Shown piece after piece: positions 4,596-30,667 of a stretch of 64,000 nucleotides of DNA (position 1 is the stretch's first letter; every line of letters starts with the position of its first letter). Below the pieces are notes generated by a model. It was given only the letters and a program-made list of their open reading frames with translations, did no database searches and was not told where the DNA came from. The translations under genes were made by a program, and so were the position numbers. The stretch comes from Nitrosomonadales bacterium (GTDB lineage: Bacteria; Pseudomonadota; Gammaproteobacteria; Burkholderiales; Gallionellaceae): positions 1 to 64,000 of the forward strand of contig JACRME010000001.1 of the NCBI GenBank assembly GCA_016235045.1, in the 5' to 3' direction.

Positions 4596-6833
<2,238 letters not shown>

Positions 6834-12014: not shown

Positions 12015-13289
12015 GTCCGGAGGAAGTCCCAGCACCTTCGCCACTTCGGCGCGGCCGCCTTCCTTCATCCAGCGATTCGCTTCCTGAGCGTAGTTGACCA
12101 CGTCGGTCATCGCGGAATCGAAGCCGAAAATGCGGTAAGGGATGCGCAACGAGTCGAGCACATCCTTGAACACGCCCATGCCGCGAATCACCTGCGGACC
12201 GCCGCGGCCGATCACCACATACAGCGGGGTCGGACCGTGTTCGCTGAAGTAATCGCGCAGCGCATCGGCCATCGCGCGGAACGTGACGAAGATATCGGTG
12301 TTGTTGGCCTTGCCGCCAATCACGAACAGCACGTTCGACTGCTTGAGGTAATACTTCAGGCAGATGCGCATCACTTCGTACATCTTCTCGTAGGGCGGGT
12401 TGCCGCCGAAGTCGGAAGAGATGATCGCGTCGTTGCCCAGCACTTCGGTGACCAGCGAGTTCGCGCCGCCGCCGAAGGTCGGCGCCAGGATGGTGCCCTT
12501 CTCGTTGATGACATACACGTCGCTCTGGCCCTGATAAGTGCGCAGCTCGTTGATCTCCTGCTCGAAGTCGTTGGACTCGGTGGTGAACAGGTCGGCAGGC
12601 AGGTTGAGGCGGCCCACGCGCGGATCGTCGCGGTCGAAGCCGCACTTGAAGTCGCAGGCCACCGGGATCAGCGAGCCGTTGCGGCCTTCCATCATGCGGA
12701 TGGGGTTGAGTTCCAGCGTGGACATGCCGTAGTGATGGAACAGATCCCACAGCTTGGGCAGGTGCTGCACCAACGGGGAAATGATCTCCTTGGGCGCGCC
12801 CAGGTCGGTCAGTGCGTTGGAGATGACGAAGGACTTGAGGCCGGTCAGCGGATCGAACGGCACTTCGATGATCTGGGTCTTGTCCAGTTCTTCGATGTCC
12901 ATGCCGCCGTGATGCGTGAGCGTCATCACCGGCGCGCGGTAGCGGGTCGAGTCGGTGAGCGAGAAATAGATTTCGTGTTCGGCGGGAATGGCGCCTTCGA
13001 AAGTGACGCCGCGCGATTTGTACACCGCATTGCCGGATTTATGCTCGGCGAAATAAAGGCGCTCTTTTTCCGCCAGCGCCGATTTCAGATCCTTGGCGCG
13101 ACCGAGCAGGCCTGACTTGCCTTTTTTACCCACGCCGCCCTTGAAGATGGGCTTGACGAACACCGAACCGCATTTCTCGATCAGGCTGTGTATCTCATGG
13201 TCGCTGGCTTCCGGTCCAAGCACTTCCGAAACCGGAAAATCAACGATCTTGAGCAACGACGCACCGTGTAACATTCCACTGATATTCAT
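12009..13289 (-). CDS. aclB: ATP citrate lyase, ATP-grasp subunit
   Basis: This 426-residue protein is the ATP-grasp partner (succinyl-CoA-synthetase-beta-like) of the large subunit. Visible features are the N-terminal grasp lysines in VFVKPIFKGGVGKKGKSG, the metal/ATP region STLELNPIRM and ACDFKCGFDRDDPRVGR, and a C-terminal flavodoxin-like ligase domain with FGGGANSL, VIGGKANNTD and GRGGPQVIRG. It would phosphorylate citrate through the His of AclA. Start MNISGMLHGASLLKIVDFP at 13289 follows GGAAGAG. It is the first gene of aclBA, separated from the upstream Flx operon by 230 bases in which I see no gene or clear terminator. The stop codon lies inside a REP-like element. Confidence 0.87.
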   Translation of the reverse strand: MNISGMLHGASLLKIVDFPVSEVLGPEASDHEIHSLIEKCGSVFVKPIFKGGVGKKGKSGLLGRAKDLKSALAEKERLYFAEHKSGNAVYKSRGVTFEGAIPAEHEIYFSLTDSTRYRAPVMTLTHHGGMDIEELDKTQIIEVPFDPLTGLKSFVISNALTDLGAPKEIISPLVQHLPKLWDLFHHYGMSTLELNPIRMMEGRNGSLIPVACDFKCGFDRDDPRVGRLNLPADLFTTESNDFEQEINELRTYQGQSDVYVINEKGTILAPTFGGGANSLVTEVLGNDAIISSDFGGNPPYEKMYEVMRICLKYYLKQSNVLFVIGGKANNTDIFVTFRAMADALRDYFSEHGPTPLYVVIGRGGPQVIRGMGVFKDVLDSLRIPYRIFGFDSAMTDVVNYAQEANRWMKEGGRAEVAKVLGLPPDA

Positions 13290-13519: not shown

Positions 13520-14344
13520 TTAATATTCTTCTGGCAGTTCCTTGAGCTGGGCCCAGGAATAAACCGGGCCCTTGGTACAAACGTAATCCTTGCCGACGTT
13601 GCAGCGGCCGCACTTGCCCAGACCGCATTTCATCTTGTTCTCGATCGTCGTGTAAATCTGCTCGTCGGCAAAACCCAGCTTCTGCAGGTTCTGGATCACG
13701 AACTTGATCATGATCGGAGGACCGCAGGTGATGGCGATGGTGTTATCGGGCGAAGGCTTCTTGTCCAGCACATTGGCCGGAACGAAACCGCAGAATTCCT
13801 TCCAGCCCGGTTCTGCCTTGTCGACGGAAAGCTGGATGTCGGCATTGCTGCGCATATGATCCAGCTCCGCCTTGTACATGAGGTCGCTCGCCGACCGCGC
13901 CCCGTAGAACACGGTGATGTTGTTGAAATCCGCACGTTGCGCAAGCGCCGTGGTGATCAGCGGCCAGATCGGCGCCAAGCCGACACCGCCGCCGATGAAC
14001 ACCAGGTTTTTGCCGCGCCAATCGTCCAGCGGGAAGCTGTTGCCATAGGGGCCGCGGATACCGACAACTTCGCCCACTTCAAGTTCGTGGAAAGCGGCAC
14101 TTACACGTCCCACGCGCATGATGCTGAACTGTTTATATTCCTTGATCAGCGGAGATGAGGCAATGGAGATCATCATTTCGCCGCGACCGAACAACGACAG
14201 CATGGCGCACTGGCCGCATTCGTGTTCGAAGGCAGCGCCTTCGACCGGTTCCACACGGTAAGTCTTGATGGAGCGCTCGCCGCCTATCTCTTCCTTGATA
14301 TGGGTGATGCGGGCCAGCTCGGGAAGGTAAATGTTATCCGACAT
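13520..14344 (-). CDS. FAD/NAD(P)-binding oxidoreductase, FlxA / hydrogenase-gamma-like
   Basis: This 274-residue ferredoxin-reductase-fold protein has the FAD region FSIMRVGRVSAAFHEL, the NAD(P)-binding GGGVGLAPIWPLI and a C-terminal [2Fe-2S] cysteine motif CGLGKCGRCNVGKDYVC. It matches the NAD(P)H-oxidising subunit of sulfhydrogenase (HydG) and of the FlxABCD module known in Desulfovibrio and other anaerobes, where Flx feeds NADH electrons to HdrA. It is the last gene of the long operon and overlaps the preceding gene by 11 bases. NADH versus NADPH specificity cannot be told from the sequence. Confidence 0.85.
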   Translation of the reverse strand: MSDNIYLPELARITHIKEEIGGERSIKTYRVEPVEGAAFEHECGQCAMLSLFGRGEMMISIASSPLIKEYKQFSIMRVGRVSAAFHELEVGEVVGIRGPYGNSFPLDDWRGKNLVFIGGGVGLAPIWPLITTALAQRADFNNITVFYGARSASDLMYKAELDHMRSNADIQLSVDKAEPGWKEFCGFVPANVLDKKPSPDNTIAITCGPPIMIKFVIQNLQKLGFADEQIYTTIENKMKCGLGKCGRCNVGKDYVCTKGPVYSWAQLKELPEEY

Positions 14345-15368
14345 GTTCGGTGACCTTATTGACTACATTGACGATATCCACTCCGACCGAGCACTCCGTG
14401 ATGCAGCGCCCGCAGCCGGTGCATTGCGACATGCCGAAGTTCTCGTGGAAGTACTGGAATTTGTGGTTCACGCGCTGGCGCAGCCGGGCACCCTGATTTT
14501 CGCGCGGGTTGTGGCCTGAGGTGTGCATGGTGAAATCCGGGAACTGGCAGTTGTCCCAGGTGCGCACACGGTTGCCGCGCAACGGCGATGAGCTGGTGTT
14601 TTCGTCGTTGATGTCGAAGCAATGGCAGGTCGGGCACAGGAAGGTACAGGCGCCGCAACCGATACAGGCGCGCGCCAGTTCTTCCCACAACGGCGAATCG
14701 AAACTCGCCTTCAGTTTGGCCGGAACCGCATCGACATTGTTGATTGCGCGCTGCGGCTGGGCGAGTGCATCGGCGTGGGTCTGTTTCAGCTTTTTCTTGT
14801 CGTCGGCACTGGGTTCGCCGAACACTTTGCCGCCGGCGGTCATCAGTGCTTTGCCGGTTTCGGTGACTGCCGCCACATAGTAGCGGTCGCCCAGGTCGGT
14901 CATCAGCACGTCCATGCCCTGAGAGGACACGGGCGAACCGCCCACCGACTGGCAGAAGCAGTTGATGCCTTGCGGCTTGTTGCAAGCCAATCCGACATAG
15001 GCCACGTTGCTGCGTCGCGCCTGATAGTAGTTGTCCTGAAACTGGTCGTTGAACACCGTGTCCATGCGCACCGCACCCGCACCGTCGCAGGGGCGTACGC
15101 CGAACACGGCATGACGCGCCGCCTTAGGCTGTATCGGCGTCAGGCGCGGAGGCTGGCCCTTGATCTGCTCGAACGAGAAAAACACTTCGCGCTGCGGAAA
15201 GGAAAATCCCTTGGGCGGCTGCACGGTGTTGCTGTGCTCGAGTTGGACTTTGCCTTTGCTGGCCTTGTACGACCAGATGTCGTCTTCCATTATTGGCGCG
15301 GAAACCTGCCAGTCGCTCAGCGCGGCGACCCAGTCGTCCAATTTGTTTTTAGCTAAAATCTTTTCCAT
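14334..15368 (-). CDS. 4Fe-4S dicluster protein, FlxB / hydrogenase-beta-like
   Basis: This 344-residue protein has an N-terminal domain of the HydB/AsrA type and two C-terminal cysteine clusters, CIGCGACTFLCPTCHCFD and CTGCGRCITECSVGVD, for two [4Fe-4S] centres. It should relay electrons between the FAD subunit (13520-14344) and the FlxC/FlxD/HdrA side. It lies 2 bases downstream of the FlxC-like gene and overlaps the next gene, so coupling is likely. Homology to sulfite reductase subunit A (AsrA) is expected for this fold, but no AsrC is nearby. Confidence 0.84.
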   Translation of the reverse strand: MEKILAKNKLDDWVAALSDWQVSAPIMEDDIWSYKASKGKVQLEHSNTVQPPKGFSFPQREVFFSFEQIKGQPPRLTPIQPKAARHAVFGVRPCDGAGAVRMDTVFNDQFQDNYYQARRSNVAYVGLACNKPQGINCFCQSVGGSPVSSQGMDVLMTDLGDRYYVAAVTETGKALMTAGGKVFGEPSADDKKKLKQTHADALAQPQRAINNVDAVPAKLKASFDSPLWEELARACIGCGACTFLCPTCHCFDINDENTSSSPLRGNRVRTWDNCQFPDFTMHTSGHNPRENQGARLRQRVNHKFQYFHENFGMSQCTGCGRCITECSVGVDIVNVVNKVTEHVG

Positions 15369-15370
15369 GA

Positions 15371-16396
15371 TTACCTGATGAATTTGCCTGGGTCAGTGTC
15401 GAGGAATGAGGCTGTCAGCGACGGCCCCCCAATGCTTGCCCCCGGCTCATAGCCGAATTGTTCGCGGGCCTCGCGTTCCATCTTGTTGTTGAGGAGCCGC
15501 AACGGGATATTGACCGGACACACCCGCTCGCACTCGTTGCAATCGATGCAGCGACCGGCGAGGTGCAGCACGCGCGTCATGTGGTAGGTCATGTTCTCGG
15601 CGCGCGTTGCCGAACGCTCGATCCATTTCACGCGATTGGCCTTCTCATCGGCGGTAGTCTGTCCGGTAACCGGGAAGCTGGTGCTGTCCACGATGCACTC
15701 GTCGCAATAGCACATCGGACATACCGAGCGGCAGGCAAAACAGCGGATGCAGCGCTCGAACTGGTGATCCCAGAATTCCCAGCGCGCGGCGGGATCCAGT
15801 TCTTCAAAGCGCTTGAGCGCAGTGAACGGCGCATCCAGTTGGCGTCCGGTCTTGTCTTCGCCGAGCACAATGTTGTGTTCCTTGGGGAAACATTCGCGGC
15901 ATTCCAGGCAACGATCCGCCATCACTTCACGCGCGGGGATGCGTTGCTCGCCCTGTTCGGTGGTGAACACGAAGTCATCGCCGTCGAAAGCGGAATTGGT
16001 CGCGCGGATTCCCTTCTTCACAAGCTTGCGCTCGTCCAGCACACCGGTTCCCTCGCAGGACACGCCGATGATGTAAACGTCCTTGCGTTCGAAATAGTTT
16101 TCCTGCATCAGCACCACGGTGGAGCGCGCATCACAACCCTTGGCGATGATGGCGATGGGCAGGTCAGCCTTGGCGCGGGTATGCGCCAGGAACTTGCGGT
16201 CCTCGACCAGGTACAACGACAGGTTATGGAAGCAGGTGGGATCCCAGATCAGCTCATCTGCCTGCTCCGGTTTGGTAATGACGACGGGTTCCGCCAGCAT
16301 GCCATTGGTGCTGCGGCGGTAGCCGATCACGCCGCGCACTTCGTTCTTGGCGAGCATGTTGCGCGCGGTGTCGCGCATGTCCTGAAGATTGATCAT
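15371..16396 (-). CDS. 4Fe-4S / FrhB-FdhB-like protein, FlxC-like
   Basis: The true start is the ATG at 16396 (MINLQDMRDTARNMLAKNEV), which overlaps the stop of the FlxD-like gene by 4 bases; longer upstream reading is an artefact. The 341-residue product has an FrhB/FdhB-type N-terminal half (IAIIAKGCDARSTVVLMQEN, SCEGTG) and three cysteine groups: CLECRECFP, CIRCFACRSVCPMCYCDEC and CIDCNECERVCPV. That pattern fits the FlxC iron-sulfur subunit of the Flx-Hdr complexes, an electron wire between the NAD(P)H subunits and HdrA. Confidence 0.82.
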   Translation of the reverse strand: MINLQDMRDTARNMLAKNEVRGVIGYRRSTNGMLAEPVVITKPEQADELIWDPTCFHNLSLYLVEDRKFLAHTRAKADLPIAIIAKGCDARSTVVLMQENYFERKDVYIIGVSCEGTGVLDERKLVKKGIRATNSAFDGDDFVFTTEQGEQRIPAREVMADRCLECRECFPKEHNIVLGEDKTGRQLDAPFTALKRFEELDPAARWEFWDHQFERCIRCFACRSVCPMCYCDECIVDSTSFPVTGQTTADEKANRVKWIERSATRAENMTYHMTRVLHLAGRCIDCNECERVCPVNIPLRLLNNKMEREAREQFGYEPGASIGGPSLTASFLDTDPGKFIR

Positions 16397-16839
16397 GAGC
16401 GGCCCGCCTTCACTTTGGTCTGCGGTCCGAGCGGCCTGAGGTCTTCCACGAAATCCTTGATGACCTGCGAATACTTCGCGCCTTCGGCAGCCGATACCCA
16501 GGACATGCGGAACCTGTCCTGCTCGATGCCGACGAATCCCAGCAGTTCCTTGACCAGGTGAATCTTGCGCCGTGCCAGGAAATTGCCCTCGATGTAATGG
16601 CAATCGCCGATATGGCAGCCCGATACCAGCACGCCGTCCGCGCCTTTTTTCAGCGCCGACAGGATGTAATTCGGCGATATGCTGCCCGTACAGGGAACGG
16701 TAATGGGCGTCGCATTGGACGGGTACTGGATGCGCGATACTCCGGCCAGGTCGCTACCTGCCGACGAGCACCACTTGCACAGGAAGGCGACTATCCTGGG
16801 CTCGTAATCAGTAGTTACTTCCGCTTGTTGTTCCGACAT
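16393..16839 (-). CDS. MvhD/FlxD-like [2Fe-2S] electron-transfer subunit
   Basis: This 148-residue protein is a recognisable MvhD family member: FLCKWCSSAGSDLAG at the N-terminus, VPCTGSISPNYILSAL and VSGCHIGDCHYIEGN, with cysteines for a [2Fe-2S] centre. In methanogens MvhD connects the hydrogenase to HdrA; in Flx-Hdr systems FlxD does the same for the NADH dehydrogenase module. It lies 24 bases after hdrA and overlaps the FlxC-like gene by ATGA. It is strong evidence that HdrA here is wired to the Flx module. Confidence 0.9.
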   Translation of the reverse strand: MSEQQAEVTTDYEPRIVAFLCKWCSSAGSDLAGVSRIQYPSNATPITVPCTGSISPNYILSALKKGADGVLVSGCHIGDCHYIEGNFLARRKIHLVKELLGFVGIEQDRFRMSWVSAAEGAKYSQVIKDFVEDLRPLGPQTKVKAGRS

Positions 16840-16863
16840 CTGCTTTCCTCATTTTTCAAATTC

Positions 16864-18813
16864 TCAGGCCAGGCACGCTTCGATCATTTCCTGGATCTGC
16901 AGCCCGGTAGTATTCTTGACCTCGATGGCGGAGCGCACGCAAGTGGCGGAGCAACTGCCGCAACCCTCGCACAGCACTTCGTTCACCAGCGCCTTGCCGT
17001 TTTCCAGGCTGATGGCGTTGTACGGGCACGCGGTCACGCACATCTCGCAGCCGGTGCAGTGCGAATTGCGCACTTTGGCCACGGTCGGTGCATGGCTCAG
17101 GGTGGGCTGCGACAGCAGGCCGATCACCTTGGCTGCCGCCGCGCTGGCTTGCGATACGGTTTCCGGAATGTCTTTCGGTCCTTGCGCACAACCTGCCAGG
17201 AAGATACCGGCGGTAACGCTTTCCACCGGCTTCAACTTGGGGTGAGCCTCGGCCAGGAAGCCGTCCTTGTCGCGACCAATCTTGAGCGTCTTGGCGATGT
17301 CTGCGGTGCCCTTGGAAGGCTCCATGGCCAGCGCCAACACCACCATGTCGGCGTCGATCTCGACGTTCTGCCCGGTCAACGTGTCGGTGCCGAGCACCCT
17401 GACCTTGCCGTCCTTGCGATACAGCTTGGAAACGCGACCGCGCAGATAGATGGCCTCGTCCTCTTCCATGATGCGCTGCACGAATTCCTCATAGCCCTTG
17501 CCGCCGGAACGAATGTCGATATAGAACACGTAGGCACGGCCGTCCGGCACGTGATGCTTGTACAGGCTGGCGTGCTTGGCGGTGTACATGCAGCAAATCT
17601 TGGAGCAGTAGGCGCAGTGATTGGCGGGATCGCGCGAGCCGACGCACTGGATGAACACCACATCCTTGGGCACGGTGCGATCCGACGGCCGCAGCACATG
17701 GCCCTTGGTCGCGCCCGAAGCCGAGCACAGGCGCTCGAACTGGAGTCCGTCGAGCACATCGTCAATCTGTCCGCCGCCCAGCTCGTTCATGTGCTCCTGA
17801 GCGTAGAGGTCGTAGCCGGTCGCCACCACGATGGCGCCCACCTCCTCGGTGACGGTCTTCGGCAGCATGTCGTAGTTGATGGCGCCGACATCGCAGGCAT
17901 CCTTGCACTTGCCGCAACGCACGGGGTTCAGGCCCAGGCAGGCGTTCTCGTCCAGCGTATAGCTGGCCGGAATGGCCTGCGCGAACGGGATATGGATGGC
18001 GCGGCGCGCGGTCAGGCCGAGATCGTGTTCGTTCGGCACCACCACCGGGCAAACAGCGGCACAGTCGTCGCAGATCTTGCACAGTTCGGGATCGACGTAG
18101 GACGGTTTTTGTTTGATCTTGACCTGGAAGTTGCCCACCGAGCCGTTGACTTCCTGCACTTCGCTGTAGGTCATCAACTCGATATTCTCATGGCGCGATA
18201 CGTCCACCATCTTCGGCGACAAAATACACTGCGAGCAGTCCAGCGTCGGGAAGGTTTCGGACAACTGCAACATGTGGCCGCCGATGGTGGCCAGCTTTTC
18301 GACCAGGATCACTTTCAGGCCGGCATTGGCGATGTCGAGCGCCGCCTGGATACCGGCGATGCCGCCGCCGATCACCAGCACCTTGCGCGTGACGGGGACG
18401 GCGATAGGCTCAAGCGCCTGGTCGCGACCGGCGCGGCGCACCGCGCTGCGAGAAATCTTGATCGCCTTTTCGGTGGCGACTGCCTTGTCCTTGTGCACCC
18501 AGGCGCACTGCTCGCGAATGTTGGCGATCTCGCAAGTGAAGCTGTTCAGGCCCGCGCGCTTGGCGTTGTCGCGGAAAGTCTTTTCGTGCAAGTTGGGCGA
18601 ACAGCAGGAGATCACCACGCTGTCCAGCTTGTTGTCCTTGATGGACTGAAGCACCGCGTTCTGCCCCGGATCGGAACACATGTAAACATAGTCCTCGGAG
18701 GCAACAACATTTTCCTCGTTGGACATGGCTTCCGCGACCTTCTTCACATCGACGGTGGCGGCGATGTTGTTGCCGCAGTGGCATACAAAAACGCCTGTGC
18801 GTTTTTTGGTCAT
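16864..18813 (-). CDS. hdrA: HdrA-like flavin- and iron-sulfur-containing subunit
   Basis: This 649-residue protein has the HdrA layout: N-terminal VFVCHCGNN, FAD fold VLVIGGGIAGIQAALDIANAG, the cysteine-rich CSQCILSPKM and CKICDDCAAVCPV regions, CGKCKDACDVGAIN, and two C-terminal ferredoxin clusters CTGCEMCVTACP and CEGCGSCSATC. HdrA is the bifurcating flavoprotein of heterodisulfide reductase complexes, splitting electrons between ferredoxin and a higher-potential acceptor. Its start overlaps the korC stop by ATGA, placing it physically between the Kor oxidoreductase and the MvhD/Flx genes. HdrB and HdrC are encoded upstream of kor, beside frdAB. Confidence 0.93.
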   Translation of the reverse strand: MTKKRTGVFVCHCGNNIAATVDVKKVAEAMSNEENVVASEDYVYMCSDPGQNAVLQSIKDNKLDSVVISCCSPNLHEKTFRDNAKRAGLNSFTCEIANIREQCAWVHKDKAVATEKAIKISRSAVRRAGRDQALEPIAVPVTRKVLVIGGGIAGIQAALDIANAGLKVILVEKLATIGGHMLQLSETFPTLDCSQCILSPKMVDVSRHENIELMTYSEVQEVNGSVGNFQVKIKQKPSYVDPELCKICDDCAAVCPVVVPNEHDLGLTARRAIHIPFAQAIPASYTLDENACLGLNPVRCGKCKDACDVGAINYDMLPKTVTEEVGAIVVATGYDLYAQEHMNELGGGQIDDVLDGLQFERLCSASGATKGHVLRPSDRTVPKDVVFIQCVGSRDPANHCAYCSKICCMYTAKHASLYKHHVPDGRAYVFYIDIRSGGKGYEEFVQRIMEEDEAIYLRGRVSKLYRKDGKVRVLGTDTLTGQNVEIDADMVVLALAMEPSKGTADIAKTLKIGRDKDGFLAEAHPKLKPVESVTAGIFLAGCAQGPKDIPETVSQASAAAAKVIGLLSQPTLSHAPTVAKVRNSHCTGCEMCVTACPYNAISLENGKALVNEVLCEGCGSCSATCVRSAIEVKNTTGLQIQEMIEACLA

Positions 18814-19373
18814 GCTGTCACTCCCGACATTTTCATGGCTTGGACGCCGTAGTCATAGCCCTTCTCGAACGCTTTCTGATTGATCTTCAGGAAACGGTCC
18901 GGCACCAGACCGGGCAGGGCCTTCTTCATCGCGTCGGCGGTGACCACGCCGGTCACGGCGGTCAGGAAACCCAGCGCCACCAGATTGGTGAACAGGCGGT
19001 TGCCCAATTCTTCGGCGAAACGGGTCGCCGGCACGCGCCACAACTTGAGATTGGCATGGTCGGCTTTCAACTTGACCAGATCTTCCTCGACGATCAGCGC
19101 GCCGCCCTCGGGCAACTCCGGGTAATACAGGTCGTAAGCTTCCTGCGACAGCGCCATGAGCACGCCCGGCTGGGTGATGTACGGATAAAGAACGCGGTCG
19201 TCGGAAACCACCAGTTGGGCGGCACAGGCGCTGCCGCGCGCCTCCGGGCCGAAGCTCTGGGTCATGGTGGCGAACTTGTCGTCATAGAGGGACAACGCCT
19301 TGCCCGTGATCAGGGCGCAACGGATGATGCCCTGTCCGCCGAATCCCGAAAACCTGATTTGATGGGTGCTCAT
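18810..19373 (-). CDS. korC: 2-oxoacid:ferredoxin oxidoreductase, gamma subunit
   Basis: This 187-residue protein carries the gamma-domain signature RFSGFGGQGIIRCALITGKAL at its N-terminus and SFGPEARGSACAAQLVVSD, which bind near the CoA site of the four-subunit enzymes. It is encoded separately from the alpha subunit, as in methanogen-type KorDABC. It starts 11 bases after korB and its stop overlaps the start of hdrA. Confidence 0.93.
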   Translation of the reverse strand: MSTHQIRFSGFGGQGIIRCALITGKALSLYDDKFATMTQSFGPEARGSACAAQLVVSDDRVLYPYITQPGVLMALSQEAYDLYYPELPEGGALIVEEDLVKLKADHANLKLWRVPATRFAEELGNRLFTNLVALGFLTAVTGVVTADAMKKALPGLVPDRFLKINQKAFEKGYDYGVQAMKMSGVTA

Positions 19374-19384
19374 ATGCTCGCTTC

Positions 19385-20575
19385 CTACTTACGCGTCTTC
19401 TTCACGGCGGCCTTGGCCGTCGTCTTTTTGGCTGCCGCCTTGGCGGTCGTCTTGGATGCGGCTTTCGCGGTCGCAGCCGTCTTCTTCACCGTCTTGGCCG
19501 CAACCTTGGTTGCGGCTTTCTTCGCAGTCGCTGCGGGCGTTTTCGCCACAGCTTTCTTCGCTGCGGTCTTGACCGGAATCTTGGCCGAGATTTTCGTCAC
19601 CACCTTGGCCGCCTTTGCCTTGGACTTTTCTTCTTCTGCCAGCACCGCAGCACGACGTGCGGCCACGCGCTCCTTCTCGGCCTTCTCTTCAGCCTCGCGT
19701 TCCGGCACTGTCTTGCCGTAGAGTTCGTAGTCGTCACCCACGACCTGCACGCAGCGCTTGTCCAGCGCCTCGATATAGGTCGGCTTGTCCTTCTCGACAA
19801 ATTTGCCGATGGTGATCTTGCCCTGGAAGTCGATATCCAGATCGCGGGTGTCGGCGCCGTGCTTGAGGACGGCGTTTTCCTGATAGAACTGCAGCGCATC
19901 CACGCCGTCGCCCAGACGGTTGCGGCGCAAATAGAGCGTGGTGCAGGGCGAAATGACTTCGATGAAAGAAAAACCCTTGCGCGACAGCGCTTCTTCTATT
20001 GACTGGATAAGGTTGCGCGAGTGCATCGAGGTCCAGCGCGCGATATAGGTAGCGCCGGCCGCGTCTGCCAGGAAGGGCAGGTTGAACGGATACTCGTGGT
20101 TGCCGAAAGGCGTGGTCGAGGAAATCGCGGAATGCGGAGTCGTCGGTGTCACTTGCCCGCCGGTCATGCCGTAAGTGAAGTTGTTGTTGCAAATGACGAC
20201 GATGTCCATGTTGCGGCGCGCCGCATGGATGAAGTGGTTGCCGCCGATACCGGTGAGGTCGCCCTCGCCGCTGAACACCACTACTTTCATGTCCGGTCTG
20301 GCCAACTTGAGTCCGGTCGCAACGGGAATGGCGCGTCCATGCGTAGTGTGAATGGAATCGAAATCGACGTAACCCGCAACACGGCCCGTACAGCCGATGC
20401 CGGAAACGACTGCCAGCTTGTCGGGATCGATGCCGCTGCGCTTGACCGCTTCGGCAAACGCATTCACTTCGGAACCGATACCGCACCCGGGACACCAGAT
20501 ATGCGACATCCGGTCCATGCGCAGGGTGCCCGACATGGGACTGTCCTTCTTGAATTGAGCGATTTCCGAACTCAT
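19385..20575 (-). CDS. korB: 2-oxoacid:ferredoxin oxidoreductase, beta (TPP) subunit with histone-H1-like tail
   Basis: Residues 1-290 are a normal TPP-binding beta subunit: HIWCPGCGIGSEVNAF, GIGCTGRVAGY, and the TPP/Mg motif GEGDLTGIGG followed by VICNNNFTYGMTGG. The family normally ends near 290 residues. Here the frame continues with a charged Glu/Arg-rich segment (about 291-328) and then roughly 68 residues almost entirely of Ala, Lys, Thr and Val, in repeats like AKKAATKVAAKT, resembling the C-terminal tail of eukaryotic or bacterial histone-H1-like proteins. The stop is followed 11 bases later by korC, so the tail is in the operon reading frame and not a read-through. The role of the tail is unknown: RNA/DNA or acidic-protein binding are guesses. 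Confidence 0.93.
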   Translation of the reverse strand: MSSEIAQFKKDSPMSGTLRMDRMSHIWCPGCGIGSEVNAFAEAVKRSGIDPDKLAVVSGIGCTGRVAGYVDFDSIHTTHGRAIPVATGLKLARPDMKVVVFSGEGDLTGIGGNHFIHAARRNMDIVVICNNNFTYGMTGGQVTPTTPHSAISSTTPFGNHEYPFNLPFLADAAGATYIARWTSMHSRNLIQSIEEALSRKGFSFIEVISPCTTLYLRRNRLGDGVDALQFYQENAVLKHGADTRDLDIDFQGKITIGKFVEKDKPTYIEALDKRCVQVVGDDYELYGKTVPEREAEEKAEKERVAARRAAVLAEEEKSKAKAAKVVTKISAKIPVKTAAKKAVAKTPAATAKKAATKVAAKTVKKTAATAKAASKTTAKAAAKKTTAKAAVKKTRK

Positions 20576-21744
20576 TTGTTTCCCTTTCTGATTGCTTCCA
20601 GTATTACCTCAGGATCATGCACCGCGCCGCCGCAGTGGTTGACGCTGATCACTTTGCTCTTGCCGCCGGCACAACGCTCCACCTCGAGTACCATCTGGCC
20701 GTAATTGAGCTCGGGTACAACGAAAGTCTTGACCTTGCCGGCCAGTTCACGGATGCGTTTTTCGCAGAACGGCCAGATTGTGATCATGCGCAGCGATCCA
20801 ACCTTGATGCCTTCCTTGCGAGCATCCTGAATGGCCTTGACCGCGATGCGCGAAGTGATGCCGTAGGACACCACCACCACATCCGCACCTTCGATCTGAT
20901 CTTCGTCGAGGCGCACGATGTCGTCGGCATTGCCGTTGATCTTTTCCATCAGGTGCGTGACGACGATCTTGTTCTGATCTGCCGTCACCACGGGATAGCC
21001 TTTTTCGTTGTGCGTAAGCCCCGTGATGTGGAAACGGTAGCCGTCGCCCGCGCGCGCCATCGGGTGGCCGCCCTGCGAGTTAAATTTGTAAGGACGGAAA
21101 TCTTCCTTGGGGCCGTTGTATAGGTTGCGCGGCACGACCTTGATCTGGTCGGCAGCAGGAATGACGACCTTCTCATGCATGTGGCCGACAGTCTCGTCGG
21201 TCAGGATGATCACGGGAACGCGGTAGTACTCGGACAGATTGAAAGCCTCGATGGCGAGGTCAAAACATTCCTGCGGGCTATCCGGCGACAGCGCAATCAT
21301 GGCATTGTCACCGTGTGGGCCGTAACGTGCCTGCATCATGTCCTGCTGCGCAGTCAGCGTGGGTGCGCCGGTTGAAGGGCCCGCACGTTGCACATTGCAA
21401 ATGACCATGGGCGTTTCAGTCATGGCTGCCAAGCCGATATTTTCCACCATCAGAGAGAAGCCGGGACCGCAGGTCACGGTCATCACCTTCTGTCCGCCCC
21501 AGACCGCGCCAATGTTGGCAGCGATGGCAGACAGCTCGTCCTCCATCTGAATGAACATCGCGCCGACTTCCGGTGCGCGTTCGGCGAAACGCTCGAATGT
21601 CTCGGTCGAAGGCGTGATCGGATATCCCGCAAAGAAGCGGCAGCCTGCAGCCAGAGCACCTTCAGCCAGGGCATGGTCGCCGTCCATGAAATGGGGACCG
21701 GCATCAACCCCTTTGGGATCGGCTGGCACTGTCTTGATATTCAT
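20572..21744 (-). CDS. korA: 2-oxoacid:ferredoxin oxidoreductase, alpha subunit (probably 2-oxoglutarate)
   Basis: The start is the ATG at 21744 (MNIKTVPADPKGVDAGPHFMDG), overlapping korD by ATGA; upstream in-frame codons lie inside korD. The 390-residue subunit has the pyrimidine-binding domain motif FFAGYPITPSTE, EDELSAIAANIGAVWGGQKVMT and QRAGPSTGAPTLTAQQDM, typical of KorA of the D-A-B-C type. The enzyme would carboxylate succinyl-CoA to 2-oxoglutarate with reduced ferredoxin, or run oxidatively. Assignment to 2-oxoglutarate rather than pyruvate or another oxoacid rests on subunit type, the operon and the absence of sucAB, and is an inference. Confidence 0.9.
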   Translation of the reverse strand: MNIKTVPADPKGVDAGPHFMDGDHALAEGALAAGCRFFAGYPITPSTETFERFAERAPEVGAMFIQMEDELSAIAANIGAVWGGQKVMTVTCGPGFSLMVENIGLAAMTETPMVICNVQRAGPSTGAPTLTAQQDMMQARYGPHGDNAMIALSPDSPQECFDLAIEAFNLSEYYRVPVIILTDETVGHMHEKVVIPAADQIKVVPRNLYNGPKEDFRPYKFNSQGGHPMARAGDGYRFHITGLTHNEKGYPVVTADQNKIVVTHLMEKINGNADDIVRLDEDQIEGADVVVVSYGITSRIAVKAIQDARKEGIKVGSLRMITIWPFCEKRIRELAGKVKTFVVPELNYGQMVLEVERCAGGKSKVISVNHCGGAVHDPEVILEAIRKGNK

Positions 21745-21998
21745 ACTTTTCCTTTCTCGTTTCCATCGTCCCGTTCCACGTAAATGGCAAACTCGGGGCA
21801 AATCAACTGACAATAGTTGCAATCACGGCAATTCTCCGGATTCTTGGCGATGGGCGGGTGATAGCCCTTGGCGTTGAATTCCGGAGATGTGTCCAGCACA
21901 TTGGTCGGACAAAACTGTACGCAGAAGCCGCAGCCCTTGCACCAGGTCTCGTTGACGAAGACCCTTCCATGGAGCGGCTTGAGATCGTTGAAATACAT
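21741..21998 (-). CDS. korD: 2-oxoacid:ferredoxin oxidoreductase, delta (ferredoxin) subunit
   Basis: This 85-residue dicluster ferredoxin has CKGCGFCVQFCPTNVLD and CRDCNYCQLICPEFAIYVE, two [4Fe-4S] sites. It begins the korDABC set, 11 bases after hdrB, and overlaps korA by ATGA. It should carry electrons between the TPP enzyme and soluble ferredoxin or HdrA. Confidence 0.92.
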   Translation of the reverse strand: MYFNDLKPLHGRVFVNETWCKGCGFCVQFCPTNVLDTSPEFNAKGYHPPIAKNPENCRDCNYCQLICPEFAIYVERDDGNEKGKV

Positions 21999-22009
21999 GG
22001 TTACCTCCC

Positions 22010-22906
22010 TCAGGCGAGATCGCGGGCCGCGAGCGCCGGCTTCGGATCAATATGGTGGAGATCGAAACGCAGCGCATCGTCGCCGCATTCGAGCGCCAAC
22101 GCCATCAACTGCGTGAAGTACAACACCGGCATGTGCTTGAAATCCGGGTTGAGGCGCTTTGCGTCGTCCTGGCGGAAGTCCAGGTTGTAAGCGCACATCG
22201 GGCAACTCACCACCACCAGATCCACATCCTGTTCGCTGGCCGAGCCCATGATCTTGTCGGTACGGTCGGCGATGATCTCGGGTTTGCCGACTGCATGATA
22301 GGCGCCGCAACATTCGGTCTTGAGCGGGAAGTTCACCGGCGTCGCACCGAGTGCGGCAATCAGGTTTTCCATGATCATCGGGTTCTCGACATCGTCGAAA
22401 GCAACTTCTTTTGGACGCACCAGCAGGCAGCCGTAATAGCAGGCAACGCGCAATCCCGTGAGCGGCTTCTTCACCTTCTCGGCCAGTTTGTCGAAGCCGA
22501 CGCGGTCGCGCAGATATTCGAGCAGATGCCGCACTTCCACATCGCCTTCGTACTTGGTGGTTTCCAGATTCAGGAAATTGTTAATCGTGGACAGCTTGTC
22601 CGGATTCTTCTTGACGTCGATGTTGGCACGCTTGAGCGTGTTATAGCACATGGCGCAGGAAGTCATGAATTCGCTGGCCATGCCCTCGGTCTTGGCCGCC
22701 GTTTCCTTGACGCGGATCAGGTTGGTCACCGGCGCCACGCGGTTCATGACGTTCTCGGCGCCCAGCGCATGCACGGTGCCGCAGCAGTTCCAGCGATCCA
22801 GTTCCTCAACCTCCACATCCAGTTCCGCCATGGACGAAACGGTGGAGACATCGAAGTTTCTGGCGCTGTTCTTCAGCGTGCAACCGGGATAATAAATAAG
22901 TTTCAT
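22010..22906 (-). CDS. hdrB: HdrB-like CCG-domain protein (heterodisulfide reductase B / fumarate reductase E-type)
   Basis: This 298-residue protein has two cysteine-rich CCG-type domains: YYPGCTLKNSARNF, DRWNCCGTVHALGAEN, MTSCAMCYNTLKRAN, then ACYYGCLLVRP, KTECCGAYHAVG and VSCPMCAYNLDFRQ. HdrB binds the unusual non-cubane clusters that reduce disulfides in methanogens. Similar subunits (TfrB, SdhE, and the extra Frd subunits of Aquificales) accompany soluble succinate/fumarate enzymes. Its place between hdrC-frdAB and korDABC, away from hdrA, suggests it serves the fumarate reductase, possibly accepting electrons from HdrA. Confidence 0.92.
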   Translation of the reverse strand: MKLIYYPGCTLKNSARNFDVSTVSSMAELDVEVEELDRWNCCGTVHALGAENVMNRVAPVTNLIRVKETAAKTEGMASEFMTSCAMCYNTLKRANIDVKKNPDKLSTINNFLNLETTKYEGDVEVRHLLEYLRDRVGFDKLAEKVKKPLTGLRVACYYGCLLVRPKEVAFDDVENPMIMENLIAALGATPVNFPLKTECCGAYHAVGKPEIIADRTDKIMGSASEQDVDLVVVSCPMCAYNLDFRQDDAKRLNPDFKHMPVLYFTQLMALALECGDDALRFDLHHIDPKPALAARDLA

Positions 22907-22925
22907 CGTTCCGTTTCGCTTCTCA

Positions 22926-23345
22926 TCAAGAGGTCAGTTTGCGCATTGCGGCGATCATGGCGATCGGCGGCAAGTCGGCGCGCACTTCGGGAGAAATTTC
23001 CCAGATATTGAGACGGTCATCGCGCTGTCCGTTGCGCAAAGCCGTTTCGCGCAGGGATTCGATGACTTCGGCGATCTTGATATTCTTCGGGCAACGCGAA
23101 TTGCAGGTCAGGCAGGACACGCAGGTCCAGATGGTGCGCGAAGCCAGCAACTGCTTCTCCATGCCCAGTTGTGCCATGCGCACGATCTGGTTGGGCAGAA
23201 TATCCATGTACGCCGCCATCGGACAACCGGCGGAACATTTGCCGCACTGGTAGCAGGCCAGCAGTTTCTGGCCGCTGATCTTTTCTACTTTCGCGGTGAA
23301 GGTGTTGTTCTTGCCGGGAAGGAAACGCAGGGTCGTATCGTTCAT
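22926..23345 (-). CDS. hdrC: HdrC-like 4Fe-4S protein
   Basis: This 139-residue protein contains CYQCGKCSAGCPMAAYMD and CVSCLTCNSRCPKNIKIAEV, the two [4Fe-4S] motifs of HdrC, and the following short helical tail. It pairs with HdrB as the electron conduit to its catalytic clusters. It lies 19 bases upstream of hdrB and 9 bases downstream of the ferritin-like gene, within the frd part of the operon. Confidence 0.92.
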   Translation of the reverse strand: MNDTTLRFLPGKNNTFTAKVEKISGQKLLACYQCGKCSAGCPMAAYMDILPNQIVRMAQLGMEKQLLASRTIWTCVSCLTCNSRCPKNIKIAEVIESLRETALRNGQRDDRLNIWEISPEVRADLPPIAMIAAMRKLTS

Positions 23346-23354
23346 GGCTGGCCT

Positions 23355-23888
23355 CTAGAATTTCCCGTCCATGCGGAACTCGGGCATGTCCAGCCACAAA
23401 CCGGTGTTGAGCACGCTGTCCAGTTGCGCCTGCAGATTGTCGTACCGGAAGAATTCGCCCTCCAGTATCTTGTCCGCCAGCTTGACGATGTCCCGGTCGC
23501 TGGTATGCGAAGCCAGATCCTTGAACACATGAATGAACCGCCTTTGCAGTTCCATGGCAAGACGCAATGCCTGGGTGTCGTCGGCCACAACGCCATGACC
23601 GCGACGTTTCACCTCGGCTTCCATATCGGCGACGACGACTGAAGGAACAATACTCGTCGCCGCTTCGGCCACCAGACGCACCCATACCTCATTGCCAATG
23701 ATCTTGCCGAACAAGCGGGTCAGATCGTCCATGCGCTCGGTGTCTTTTTTTGCCAGGCGACGGAACATCTTCTTGCCGCTGTCGTTCCGGGTCATCTCGG
23801 CAGCATGGCGGAAAAAAGGCTCGCCGCTGAACTCGAAGCTGAGCGCGGCACGCGCCAGCTCGATTACTTTATCGTCAACGTGGCTCAT
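23355..23888 (-). CDS. Ferritin/rubrerythrin-like helical protein of the frd operon
   Basis: This 177-residue all-helical protein looks like two halves of a ferritin-like four-helix bundle: FSGEPFFRHAAEM..GKKMFRRLAKKDTERMDDL in the first half resembles the rubrerythrin pattern E-x-A-x-FY-x-AA..GKK-x-FRRLA-x-(D/E)E-x-x-H, and LADKILEGEFFRYDNLQ in the second resembles the matching second helix. The usual ligand histidines seem replaced (Asp in ERMD, Tyr in EFFRY), so a di-iron site may be degraded. There are no rubredoxin cysteines. It sits 4 bases after frdA and 9 before hdrC, so it is probably a functional partner of this fumarate reductase. Its role is unknown to me. Confidence 0.75.
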   Translation of the reverse strand: MSHVDDKVIELARAALSFEFSGEPFFRHAAEMTRNDSGKKMFRRLAKKDTERMDDLTRLFGKIIGNEVWVRLVAEAATSIVPSVVVADMEAEVKRRGHGVVADDTQALRLAMELQRRFIHVFKDLASHTSDRDIVKLADKILEGEFFRYDNLQAQLDSVLNTGLWLDMPEFRMDGKF

Positions 23889-23892
23889 CGGC

Positions 23893-25620
23893 TTATTTCG
23901 CTCCCGCAGGGCTAAACGCGTCGTCGTGCAGCCTGTTCTGCAGCACCGACGAACCCGGCAGCGTATTGCCGCCGCGAACCAGTTGACGCTTCTTCACGTC
24001 CTTGGGCGCGTAAGAAGGCAGCAAAATAGGCGTAACCAGGTCGGTCTTGACGTTGGCATCCTTTAACTGCTTCTCGTATGCATCGAGGTGGGCCACGGAA
24101 AGTTTGCCCAGCTTGGCCTTCTTGGCGTACTCGCTCGCATACCTGCCGGCGCGAATTCCGAACACGTTGTAGTCGAGCACCGAATTGCCCATCAGGCGGT
24201 TGCGGCCGTGCAAGCCGCCGGAAGCCTCGCCCGCCACATACAGGCCGGGGATATCGGTCTCGCACTTTTCGTTGATCTCGATGCCGCCGTTCTGGTAGTG
24301 CAGCGACGGGTAGATCAGCATCGGCAGCTTGGTGATATCGATGCCGTAGCGGATGAACTGGCGATACATGGCCGGGAAGTGTCTTTCGGTATATCCCTCG
24401 CCGTGCAGCATGTCGATCAGCGGCGAATCCAGCCACACGCCGACGCGACCGGACGGCGTCGTGATTCCGTTGCCGTTCTGCACGCACTCGCGAATGATGG
24501 CCGAAGCCTCGATGTCGCGCGGTTCGCGCGGGAAGACGAACAGTTCGCCGTCCTTGTTCAGCGGCTGGCCGCCCGCACCGCGAATCGCCTCGGTAACCAG
24601 GAAGCCCGCAATCTGCTCGGGGAAGGAAACACCTGTCGGGTGGTATTGCACGGAATCCATGTACATCAGCTTGGCACCCGCACGATAGGCCATCACCAGT
24701 CCGTCGCCAGTGGCGCCGTAGTGATTGGTGGTGTCGTAACCGCGGATGTGCAGACGGCCGTAGCCGCCGGTGGCGATGATGGTGGACTTGGCCTTGACGG
24801 TGAAGAACTCTTCGCTGTCCATGTTATACAGGACCGCTCCGGCGCATTTGCCTTCGCTGTCCATGATCAATTCCACGGCCGGCATGAATTCCTTGACGGT
24901 AATCATGTCGGGATGGTTGCGCACCTCGTCCATCAGTGTGCGCATGATCATCGCCCCGGTGTAGTCGCGGCAGGACATCATGCGCTTGCGCGAGGTGCCG
25001 CCGCCGTGCATGACCTTCATCGAACCGTCTTCTTCCTTGTCCCACACCACGCCCAGTTCTTCCAGCCACTTGACCACGGCCGGACCGTCCTCGGTGAGCG
25101 CCTTGACCAGTTCCGGCTTGTTCTCGAAGTGTCCGCCGCCGATCGCATCCAGATAGTGACGAGTCGGCGAGTCGGTGCGCGACACCGCAGCCTGCATGCC
25201 GCCCTGCGACATCATGGTATTGGCATCGCCCATGCGCAGTTTGGTGGCGATCACCGATTTCACGCCGTGTTCGCGCATGGCGATCAGCGCGGCATTGCAG
25301 CCGGCGCCGCCGCCGCCGATGATCAGCACGTCGGTTTCGATATCGGGTTTGCTCAGATCGACCTGTTCGCTGGTCAGCCAGGAATGGGACTCCAGCAAAT
25401 CGGACACTTCAGTGGTCAGCTTTTCTCCCTTGTTGGGACCGACGCATACAGCGCGGCGCGCGCTGGGCTCGTAGTCGGGGTGGAAGCCTTCCAGCACCTT
25501 CTGACGCTCTTCCGCATTCATCAGCGGATAAACCGGTTCGGACTTGCGCGCCAGTTCCAGGCGCTTGGGACGCGTCTGCTCAACTTTGCGCAACGATTCT
25601 GCCATGTAATCTGGATACAT
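23893..25620 (-). CDS. frdA: Soluble fumarate reductase / succinate dehydrogenase-like flavoprotein subunit
   Basis: This 575-residue protein has the FAD fold DVLIIGGGGAGCNAAL starting only at about residue 96, after a 90-residue N-terminal extension not found in SdhA. Catalytic regions are conserved: MSQGGMQAAV, YHPTGVSFPEQ, EAIRGAGGQPLNKDGE, RDIEASAIIREC and the H-x3-GGI plus LHGRNRLMGNS region. The usual C-terminal helical domain is shortened. No membrane-anchor genes are nearby; partners are FrdB, HdrC and HdrB. It therefore resembles the soluble multi-subunit fumarate reductases of rTCA bacteria rather than the membrane sdh at the left edge. The direction (fumarate reduction) is inferred from context. 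Confidence 0.88.
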   Translation of the reverse strand: MYPDYMAESLRKVEQTRPKRLELARKSEPVYPLMNAEERQKVLEGFHPDYEPSARRAVCVGPNKGEKLTTEVSDLLESHSWLTSEQVDLSKPDIETDVLIIGGGGAGCNAALIAMREHGVKSVIATKLRMGDANTMMSQGGMQAAVSRTDSPTRHYLDAIGGGHFENKPELVKALTEDGPAVVKWLEELGVVWDKEEDGSMKVMHGGGTSRKRMMSCRDYTGAMIMRTLMDEVRNHPDMITVKEFMPAVELIMDSEGKCAGAVLYNMDSEEFFTVKAKSTIIATGGYGRLHIRGYDTTNHYGATGDGLVMAYRAGAKLMYMDSVQYHPTGVSFPEQIAGFLVTEAIRGAGGQPLNKDGELFVFPREPRDIEASAIIRECVQNGNGITTPSGRVGVWLDSPLIDMLHGEGYTERHFPAMYRQFIRYGIDITKLPMLIYPSLHYQNGGIEINEKCETDIPGLYVAGEASGGLHGRNRLMGNSVLDYNVFGIRAGRYASEYAKKAKLGKLSVAHLDAYEKQLKDANVKTDLVTPILLPSYAPKDVKKRQLVRGGNTLPGSSVLQNRLHDDAFSPAGAK

Positions 25621-25632
25621 CTGTGTTCCCCT

Positions 25633-26376
25633 TTATTCCGAATCTCGTGCGTAGTAGCGCTTGGTCAACGCCTCGCGGTCCATCGACATCATCTCGGCGT
25701 ATTCCGCCTCATAGACACCGTCTTCCACCGCCTTGACGCGTTCCGCCAGTTCCGGGCTATCCTTGCGCAGGTAGCGTCCATACAGGCGCTTCGCCATGAT
25801 GCCCATCAGCGGCTGGGTAATTTCGGCCGGGCAACGCAGCATGCACAGGCCGCAAACGACGCAGTCGAAGGACAAGTCCATTACCGAGGCAATGTCGCCA
25901 CGCTTGGCAGCCTGAACGTAGTCCATGACCTGCAAGCCTTGCGGACAGGACTTGGTGCAGGTGCCGCAGGCGACGCAACGGAACACCGTGGGATACATCT
26001 GCTGGATTGCGGTAACGTCGGGTTTGAGCTTCTCGATGTCGTAAATCGCCTTCTCGGCGGGAACCGAGGGGATCTGGGCCAGCGTCATGCCGTCTTCAAC
26101 CATGGTCATGCAGGCCAGGCCGGTACGGATCTTATAGTCGCCAGGCAGGCGATAAATGGTGGCACAAGCGCCGCAATAACCTTCGCGACACCCGGCACCA
26201 CGGATGATCTGGTGGCCGGCGTATTCGATGGCACCCATGATGGTGGCCTTGGCGGGCACTTCATAGGCCTTGCCCATGATGTATACAGTGATAAGACTTT
26301 CTGCTGCCTTGTCTTGCTGAGCGTCTTTTTGTGAAGACGACAAACCACTACTCGCCCCTGCGGGTGCGTTAACCAT
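25633..26376 (-). CDS. frdB: Fumarate reductase iron-sulfur subunit
   Basis: It has the N-terminal [2Fe-2S] domain cysteines GCREGYCGACATIYRL and two C-terminal clusters, CVACGTCTKSCPQG and CVVCGLCMLRCPAE. An upstream in-frame ATG at 26400 exists, but the ribosome binding site GGGGGAGA lies 8 bases before the ATG at 26376 (MVNAPAGASSG), so I prefer that start (247 residues). The N-terminal 20 residues are Ser/Gly/Asp-rich and look like a linker. It is the first gene of the 13-gene frd-hdrCB-kor-hdrA-flx operon, so its upstream region should hold the operon promoter. Confidence 0.88.
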   Translation of the reverse strand: MVNAPAGASSGLSSSQKDAQQDKAAESLITVYIMGKAYEVPAKATIMGAIEYAGHQIIRGAGCREGYCGACATIYRLPGDYKIRTGLACMTMVEDGMTLAQIPSVPAEKAIYDIEKLKPDVTAIQQMYPTVFRCVACGTCTKSCPQGLQVMDYVQAAKRGDIASVMDLSFDCVVCGLCMLRCPAEITQPLMGIMAKRLYGRYLRKDSPELAERVKAVEDGVYEAEYAEMMSMDREALTKRYYARDSE

Positions 26377-28083: not shown

Positions 28084-28212
28084 CTCGCCCATGATTGAGA
28101 ACATCGTAGCGTGTGCAACAAAGTCAGCCGGGTTATGATGCAAGCAGTTGCAGTATGGATCGGACAGTAGGCAGCACCATGGGAAATGGAATTACCAATA
28201 AAGGAGAATGAA

Positions 28213-30620: not shown

Positions 30621-30667
30621 CTTTGGACGGATTCACCGGCGTCGCCGAGCCACCTCCGGCCCACTGC

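Follow-up and report, generated by a model that had tools for sequence, protein, structure and literature searches.

The 64,000-nucleotide stretch of DNA analysed here (the window) comes from a Nitrosomonadales bacterium (assembly GCA_016235045.1, contig JACRME010000001.1, positions 1 to 64,000) and carries on its minus strand a cluster in which genes for a fumarate reductase (FrdAB) are combined with those for HdrABC, for the 2-oxoacid:acceptor oxidoreductase KorDABC and for an MvhD/FlxD-FlxABC module. We predict that these genes encode a soluble, bifurcating NADH:fumarate/ferredoxin oxidoreductase that feeds Kor and whose high-potential branch ends at fumarate, not at a disulfide, and we assign this reading, which predicts both the complex and its activity, a probability of about 0.6. 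How NADH yields ferredoxin reduced enough for 2-oxoglutarate synthesis is unsettled in bacteria that run the reductive tricarboxylic acid (rTCA) cycle without strong donors. If the prediction is true, a bifurcator pulled by fumarate would answer this question, with a 1:1 match in each turn.

The gene cluster and its subunits

The cluster consists of 14 minus-strand open reading frames (ORFs) that run from the FrdB ATG at position 26376 to the FlxA stop at 13520 in the order FrdB-FrdA-ferritin-like-HdrC-HdrB-KorD-KorA-KorB-KorC-HdrA-MvhD/FlxD-FlxC-FlxB-FlxA. A preliminary description of this DNA had listed a single 13-gene operon; its names and order hold, but the count is 14, including a ferritin-like ORF at 23355–23888. 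Its wording that HdrA is fused in order to Kor and Flx likewise applies to gene order only, as the window contains no HdrA-Kor or HdrA-Flx protein fusion. Intergenic distances from FrdB to FlxA range from −11 to +24 bases, which fits a single transcript, and 230 bases separate FlxA from the next gene, aclA. Two sigma-70-like matches were found between 12900 and 27100, against a mean of 5.6 in shuffles; both lie on the minus strand upstream of frdB and constitute weak evidence. An Rfam scan of the whole window gave no match.

The subunits predicted to form the high-potential branch retain their cofactor ligands. FrdB (25633–26376, 247 aa) matches iron-sulfur subunits with one [2Fe-2S] and two [4Fe-4S] clusters, and its 12 cysteines are kept in all scored relatives (75/75 to 77/77; in this and the following scores, relatives outside set identity and length limits were left out). 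FrdA (23893–25620, 575 aa), the flavin adenine dinucleotide (FAD) subunit, carries an N-terminal extension of ~90 aa; its predicted structure has a predicted local distance difference test score (pLDDT) of 70, with the first 76 residues barely covered by fold comparison. The Pfam domain Succ_DH_flav_C is absent from this FrdA and present in other proteins of the genome. HdrC (22926–23345, 139 aa) matches its family and has two complete [4Fe-4S] motifs, the eight cysteines of which are found in 48/48 scored relatives. HdrB (22010–22906, 298 aa) has two CCG domains, that is, two noncubane cluster motifs; both cysteine sets are complete and all 10 CCG cysteines are kept in every scored relative (46/46 to 48/48). 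HdrB does not reach the equivalog cut-off for SdhE of the 8-methylmenaquinol:fumarate reductase SdhABE (164.4 of 500 bits), and it scores 166.0 of 345.15 bits against methanogen HdrB (TIGR03288).

The central subunit, HdrA (16864–18813), is full-length at 649 aa and ends in a 2[4Fe-4S] domain. A glutamate and a lysine at the FAD N5 have been proposed as marks of bifurcating HdrA (PMC12054007). The preliminary description had raised the case of an HdrA lacking the bifurcating flavin site; window HdrA has both residues, E360 and K413, which align with E356 and K409 of Methanothermococcus thermolithotrophicus HdrA, and among 45 rows of relatives they are kept wherever scored (44/44 and 43/43, respectively). 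Seven of the eight C-terminal ferredoxin cysteine positions are conserved in 39/39 relatives and one in 38/39. Downstream lie genes for MvhD/FlxD (16393–16839, 148 aa, an FlpD family match), the Fe-S proteins FlxC (15371–16396, family match) and FlxB (14334–15368, Fer4_22), and the NAD(P)H-binding subunit FlxA (13520–14344), with domains NAD_binding_1 and DHODB_Fe-S_bind. Between hdrB and hdrA are korD (21741–21998), which encodes an 85 aa 2[4Fe-4S] ferredoxin-like protein that matches its family, korA (20572–21744), the alpha subunit (NF006412, 533.8 bits against a cut-off of 411), korB (19385–20575, 396 aa) and korC, the gamma subunit (18810–19373, 187 aa, family match). One copy each of FlpD and full HdrA was found in the genome, and its other CCG-domain reading frames all differ from HdrB in length.

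A simple scan of 16 proteins detected no membrane anchor, the highest 19-residue Kyte-Doolittle mean being 1.86, in FrdB. Because there is neither an anchor gene nor a clear transmembrane segment, the reading of FrdAB as a membrane quinol enzyme of the complex II type was dropped.

Proposed electron flow and energetics

By homology, NADH would enter at FlxABC, and MvhD would relay its electrons to the HdrA FAD. There each pair would be split: one electron would travel down HdrC, HdrB and FrdB to FrdA for the reduction of fumarate to succinate, while the other would leave HdrA by its C-terminal [4Fe-4S] domain, bound for ferredoxin or straight for KorD. KorABCD would then be driven to convert succinyl-CoA and CO2 to 2-oxoglutarate. 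The predicted net reaction is 2 NADH + fumarate + Fd(ox) → 2 NAD+ + succinate + Fd(red), where Fd is ferredoxin. The crossing from HdrB to FrdB is a putative step; one half of the NCBIfam model of TfrB matches FrdB and the other HdrB, which makes a FrdB-HdrB contact plausible. The rTCA cycle uses one fumarate and one succinyl-CoA per turn, and bifurcation would therefore supply each Kor turnover with the two low-potential electrons it requires.

With midpoint potentials of +33 mV for fumarate and −320 mV for NAD (PMC5861303) and an assumed ferredoxin potential of −420 to −500 mV, the coupled reaction has a computed energy of −33 to −49 kJ/mol under standard conditions, compared with +19 to +35 kJ/mol for the reduction of ferredoxin by NADH alone and −68 kJ/mol for that of fumarate by NADH alone. 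The last value would also suit a plain, non-bifurcating NADH:fumarate reductase, in which Flx-MvhD-HdrA-HdrBC is a wire to FrdAB and Kor is fed by other ferredoxin sources. An NADH-dependent fumarate reductase is known in Hydrogenobacter, where it has five subunits including FrdCDE, and a simpler FrdAB-NuoF arrangement in the same family as the window, one locus of which has aclB, makes NADH-driven fumarate reduction plausible there. A NuoF wire, however, would be far simpler than HdrA-Flx, and the bifurcation residues and C-terminal ferredoxin cysteines of HdrA are kept in the scored relatives; we consider a plain reductase unlikely.

The complex might instead run in reverse, by confurcation, taking electrons from succinate and reduced ferredoxin to NADH or H2 in an anaplerotic or catabolic role. 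Many of the relatives fall in groups generally known for anaerobic life, and it has been suggested that an SdhA-HdrBC-hydrogenase cluster of Culexarchaeia couples the oxidation of succinate to H2 (PMC9723716). Yet the window cluster leads into aclAB, the genome has other Succ_DH_flav_C proteins, of which that at C16:431 is probably an ordinary succinate dehydrogenase, and the forward direction is the exergonic one under standard conditions. Reverse operation thus appears very improbable.

FrdAB and Hdr genes are associated across phyla

The best 80 of at least 589 FrdA relatives in named genomes were collected by FrdA alone, regardless of neighbours. HdrB and/or HdrA (≥35% identity) are encoded near FrdA in 60 of these 80 loci, many of which have short flanks: 37 have both within the locus DNA, and are termed core loci, 14 have only HdrB, 9 only HdrA and 20 neither. 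For the 24 loci flanked on either side by 9 kb or more the corresponding numbers are 15, 4, 1 and 4, and all four loci with neither gene have HdrB elsewhere in the genome. An HdrB match was missing from 22 loci, and for 14 of these the link was followed genome-wide; the other eight (L047, L052, L057, L061, L082, L091, L093 and L096), which are short or truncated, were left out. HdrB was found elsewhere in 13/14 of the followed genomes at E ≤ 1e-20, in 12/14 at E ≤ 1e-49 and in 11/14 at 1e-50; the twelve counted matches share 38–58% identity and ten of them reach 1e-58 or better. The sole followed genome without any HdrB, that of L056, may be incomplete. By comparison, 17/21 genomes with Hdr-free FrdA loci carry a weaker HdrB relative (E ≤ 1e-20) and 0/21 have one at E ≤ 1e-49.

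Among the matches listed, the closest FrdA relatives (88–91% identity) are in metagenome-assembled genomes (MAGs) of Gallionella, Gallionellales, Nitrosomonadales and Hydrogenophilales. FrdA of the window type (≥86%) occurs in 23/158 family genomes searched, the window's own included. The arrangement is no accident, as the window order recurs in 8/8 loci examined from the 22 others; L148 lies on the same contig as L040, and its locus ends after HdrA. In other phyla the same set is kept in shuffled order: HdrC-HdrB-Kor-HdrA-MvhD-Flx-FrdB-FrdA in Aminicenantes, HdrC-HdrB-HdrA-MvhD-FrdB-FrdA in Neomarinimicrobiota and Fermentibacteria, and HdrC-HdrB-FrdB-FrdA-HdrA in Bathyarchaeota. HdrCB adjoin FrdBA in many loci. 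Homologues of fumarate hydratase are found near 11/80 FrdA loci and succinyl-CoA synthetase beta near 12/80, which fits a C4-dicarboxylate substrate.

No FrdB-HdrB or FrdB-HdrC protein fusion was detected in the 80 loci by blastp of simple ORF calls, which were on the wrong strand in some GC-rich loci, and a search of viral contigs for window-type FrdA gave no match. Four deltaproteobacterial loci (L077, L084, L106 and L111) contain an extra SdhA-like gene, an FrdB/HdrC-like Fe-S gene and a second HdrB-like gene (31% identity to window HdrB), a set that resembles SdhABE. In six others (L058, L071, L083, L090, L105 and L114), HdrA-like ORFs of ~1000–1500 aa lie beside MvhD and an FlxC-like family; the one member scanned, from L058, had no NCBIfam match at E ≤ 1e-15.

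The donor module differs among relatives and Kor varies

The predicted electron input differs among the 37 core loci. FlxA and FlxB occur together in 9, a [NiFe]-hydrogenase subunit homologue in 10 (8 with both subunits, nearest to the NCBIfam models VhuA and VhuG), and both modules in none. An FlxC-like family without FlxAB is found in 4 more, and no donor was seen in 14/37, some of which end early, including three betaproteobacterial loci that end inside flx. At least three changes between the Flx and H2 donor types are needed on the FrdA tree (28 rows). The only type of fusion found in the 80 loci joins HdrA to MvhD and occurs in L067 and in the Bathyarchaeota loci L079, L080 and L086. HdrA is also fused to MvhD in HdrA2 of Methanosarcina, which uses reduced coenzyme F420 (F420H2).

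Kor is near 15 of the 37 core loci, whereas in 22/37, some of them short, no KorA was detected at ≥40% identity. Since Kor is near so few, it appears to consume the low-potential electrons and not to be a fixed component of the complex. A variant of our reading, suggested in PMC6315080, holds that Kor is a structural part that receives electrons from HdrA directly through KorD, without free ferredoxin. In the window, as in Aminicenantes and those betaproteobacterial relatives whose loci extend far enough, korDABC separates hdrB from hdrA, which accords with such an arrangement; the loci without KorA, and the other positions that Kor occupies in loci from Cloacimonadota, Thermoplasmata and Deltaproteobacteria, do not, and we regard this variant as rather doubtful.

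With both the donor and the consumer of ferredoxin variable, FrdAB-HdrBC-HdrA-MvhD is left as the stable unit. There is about an even chance, in our estimate, that this unit is a portable bifurcating fumarate reductase present in many bacterial and archaeal phyla, in which fumarate replaces the disulfide and the donor can be exchanged: NADH through FlxABC, H2 through a VhuAG-type hydrogenase and perhaps F420H2 through the MvhD-fused HdrA. The Kor-attached form would then make the arm of the rTCA cycle from fumarate to 2-oxoglutarate self-sufficient for low-potential electrons, and the Kor-less form would supply ferredoxin to fermenters. In the hydrogenase-fed relatives the same core could be assayed with H2. 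The proposal in the preliminary description that NADH oxidation is coupled to ferredoxin and fumarate reduction agrees with the HdrA site, the FrdAB-Hdr association and Flx as the NADH input, but it overstated the physical complex and its coupling.

Evidence against a coupled FrdAB-Hdr complex

Several observations weigh against bifurcation to fumarate by an FrdAB-Hdr complex. FrdA proteins of a sister clade (47–52% identity, from other classes of the phylum) served as a control, and Hdr neighbours are present in 0/16 of their loci; one of these is only 4.5 kb, and a weak HdrC match in it falls on its FrdB. Fifteen of the 16 carry SucCD, KorA and KorB (32–39% identity) instead. In an FrdA tree of 97 rows (matches of <400 residues were to be dropped, and none was), the 16 sister-clade rows form one clade with full support in the Shimodaira-Hasegawa-like approximate likelihood-ratio test, obtained by a quick method; 81/97 rows were scored for Hdr, the others having short flanks and no Hdr match.

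Hdr genes are also missing beside a second, paralogous FrdA (43–46% identity) present in 27/158 family genomes. In all six paralog loci examined (L144–L147, L149 and L150), a NuoF-family gene comes after FrdB-FrdA, and none of the six gave a match to Hdr or Flx; a two-subunit KorAB lies upstream of FrdB-FrdA-NuoF in 5/6, and 4/5 paralog genomes searched have no HdrB match at E ≤ 1e-20. The FrdAB-NuoF paralog looks like an NADH:fumarate reductase without bifurcation, and the Hdr machinery is therefore no requirement for this FrdA family. L146 contains, ~5 kb upstream of KorA, the end of an aclB gene that shares 93% identity with the window copy, and ATP-citrate lyase may thus also accompany the NuoF type. 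From the sister clade and the paralog together it follows that FrdAB does not inherently need Hdr. With both FrdA types in 11/158 genomes, the Gallionellaceae offer a natural comparison.

The association itself has weaknesses. The 1e-49 line was set after the matches had been seen, and the weakest counted match (1.9e-50) lies close to the best control (4.9e-48); one further genome of the Hdr clade, at 5.0e-47, is beyond the line. Some loci, among them the four wide-flank ones with HdrB only, have HdrCB-FrdBA without HdrA within the locus DNA. As the relatives are mostly MAGs and share common descent, the counts are not independent events, and Fisher values computed from them are descriptive only. 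The window proteins also fall short of the NCBIfam equivalog cut-offs for TfrA (354.6 of 718 bits) and TfrB (39.6 of 385), and a 2024 paper on Endoriftia describes co-expression of a cluster of this kind except for tfrAB (PMC11636981). The FrdAB-Hdr pairing noted in the preliminary description is nevertheless borne out across phyla by synteny and genome-wide co-occurrence, with the sister clade and the paralog as its exceptions.

A rival end point for the HdrBC branch is DsrC. In the way suggested for Desulfovibrio, FlxABCD-HdrABC could bifurcate NADH electrons between ferredoxin and a disulfide carried by DsrC or a small thiol, with FrdAB acting separately and fed by thiol or ferredoxin. The host genome contains four DsrC-family genes, one of them ~2 kb from a CCG-domain gene on contig C30 (C30:144390 is the position of one of the four), and DsrC was found in 12/26 core-bearing genomes searched, including 5/9 with a Flx module. 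Binding of DsrC to FlxABCD-HdrABC was reported in Desulfovibrio in a 2023 study cited in PMC10504309, and the Endoriftia paper leaves open a route through ferredoxin and a DsrC-like protein. No DsrC-family gene was detected, however, in the other 14/26 core-bearing genomes, which are MAGs whose completeness is not given, among them 4/9 with Flx; DsrC as a general partner of HdrBC is accordingly disfavoured. HdrB of the window type, moreover, accompanies FrdA even where the two are not adjacent, and the adjacency of HdrCB to FrdBA in many loci also speaks for fumarate. A disulfide as the acceptor is somewhat unlikely in our view.

Relation to known systems

The idea of fumarate/ferredoxin bifurcation for such a cluster is already published. 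Rubin-Blum et al. (2019) described an rTCA cluster with flxABCD-hdrABC, korABCD, tfrAB and rbr in tubeworm symbionts, Thioflavicoccus mobilis and the MAG RIFOXYD12_FULL_61_37, and proposed that it shuttles electrons directly to 2-oxoglutarate oxidoreductase (OGOR) and a thiol:fumarate reductase (TFR) (PMC6315080); the Endoriftia paper restates the idea and terms it an existing theoretical model (PMC11636981). As described in the text and figure legends of the 2019 paper, from which likeness is judged by gene families and not by direct sequence comparison, that cluster shares with the window a Kor interspersed with Flx-Hdr (korABCD between hdrBC and hdrA), tfrAB-like genes, rbr, aclAB with acn, idh and mdh, and RuBisCO in the genome (in the symbionts and Thioflavicoccus, as in the window host). 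It differs in that pntAB and rnf are within the cluster, whereas here pntB and rnf-type genes are on other contigs, and in that the window host is a Gallionellaceae-like betaproteobacterium. With both the cluster and the electron-flow proposal in print, the window is a further instance and not a new system.

The remaining systems share parts of the assembly. Methanogen HdrABC-MvhAGD (PDB 5odc and 8rvu) has an end-to-end homologous HdrA (E to 2.4e-195), both CCG sets in HdrB, HdrC and MvhD; the window has an NADH module in place of the hydrogenase and fumarate reductase genes where methanogens use CoM-S-S-CoB. The Flx and Hdr subunits also form Desulfovibrio FlxABCD-HdrABC (Ramos et al. 2015), to which the window operon adds frdAB and korDABC, with hdrCB apart from hdrA. 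In Methanothermobacter TfrAB, the N-terminal part of the TfrB model matches FrdB and the C-terminal part HdrB, so that TfrB resembles an FrdB fused to an HdrB-like half, whereas FrdB, HdrC and HdrB are separate in the window. The Antarctic Cloacimonadota 'Ca. Celaenobacter' has the same core of TFR, OGOR and Hdr, which its authors link to an H2-driven rTCA cycle; there H2 enters via an Mvh group 3c hydrogenase and the acceptor is described generally as heterodisulfide (PMC8542988).

In one open-access library we found no account of a donor-exchangeable FrdAB-HdrABC core, of a genome-wide HdrB link or of a NuoF comparator in the same family; exact-phrase searches for a bifurcating fumarate reductase had no match in this library, and 'Gallionellaceae' did not appear among the matches listed for ATP-citrate lyase and the rTCA cycle, while 'Gallionella' occurs in some listed papers. 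These searches suggest that three elements are new here: a core with exchangeable donors in many phyla, the genome-wide tie of this core to a single HdrB type, and the comparator with NuoF.

Neighbouring genes, host genome and accessory features

Downstream of FlxA the minus strand continues with aclA (12009–13289, ATP-citrate lyase small subunit, family match) and aclB (9191–11893), the large subunit, with CoA_binding and Succ_CoA_lig domains and named from its length and position beside aclA. These are followed by family matches to aconitase (6849–8795), monomeric isocitrate dehydrogenase (4596–6824) and a malate dehydrogenase of the lactate/malate dehydrogenase family (3314–4297), all likewise on the minus strand. 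Elsewhere in the genome are RuBisCO (C1:57095, E 2e-121), PNTB, found only at C33:47361, and NQR2/RnfD/RnfE-family genes on contigs C20 and C32; PNTB and the NQR2/RnfD/RnfE-family genes are absent from the window's own contig, C29. Given RuBisCO and the DsrC-family genes, the host is possibly a sulfur oxidiser with genes for both the Calvin and rTCA cycles.

Just upstream of frdB, and divergent from it, an HpcH/HpaI-citrate-lyase-like gene and a gene for a cyclic-nucleotide-binding-domain protein are located at 27079–28083 and 28186–28701; these are a possible side enzyme and a possible regulator, respectively. On the opposite strand near the operon, 29252–32476 contains Memo, AMMECR1 (two copies in the window) and a radical SAM gene, and ORFs that by eye resemble this set adjoin FrdA-NuoF at L144:11846–14329.

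The ferritin-like (rubrerythrin-family) ORF between frdA and hdrC encodes 177 aa (Pfam Rubrerythrin, E 1.9e-5). Its predicted structure is helical (pLDDT 85) and its ferritin-like PDB matches are all weak, the best at E 0.012. Among the loci examined it is limited to betaproteobacteria (15 loci), being absent from the Aminicenantes version of the operon. ExxH is the di-iron ligand pattern of rubrerythrin. Across 15 ferritin-like relatives (matches of <120 residues dropped) the motif is in helix 2 (residue 54) in 8, in helix 4 (residue 145) in 2 and in both helices in none, and the window ORF and its near kin L151 and L157 lack it; a role as an active di-iron rubrerythrin is thus unsupported for the window copy. 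In hosts exposed to oxygen the protein may protect the complex or act as a scaffold for it.

Window KorB ends in a Lys/Ala-rich, histone-H1-like C-terminal tail of ~100 residues or more (19388–19708), and similar tails are present in L040, L042 and L044. All five Aminicenantes-type KorB proteins compared are without this tail, and the FrdB of L049, from Aminicenantes, has a Lys-rich N-terminal tail similar to it.

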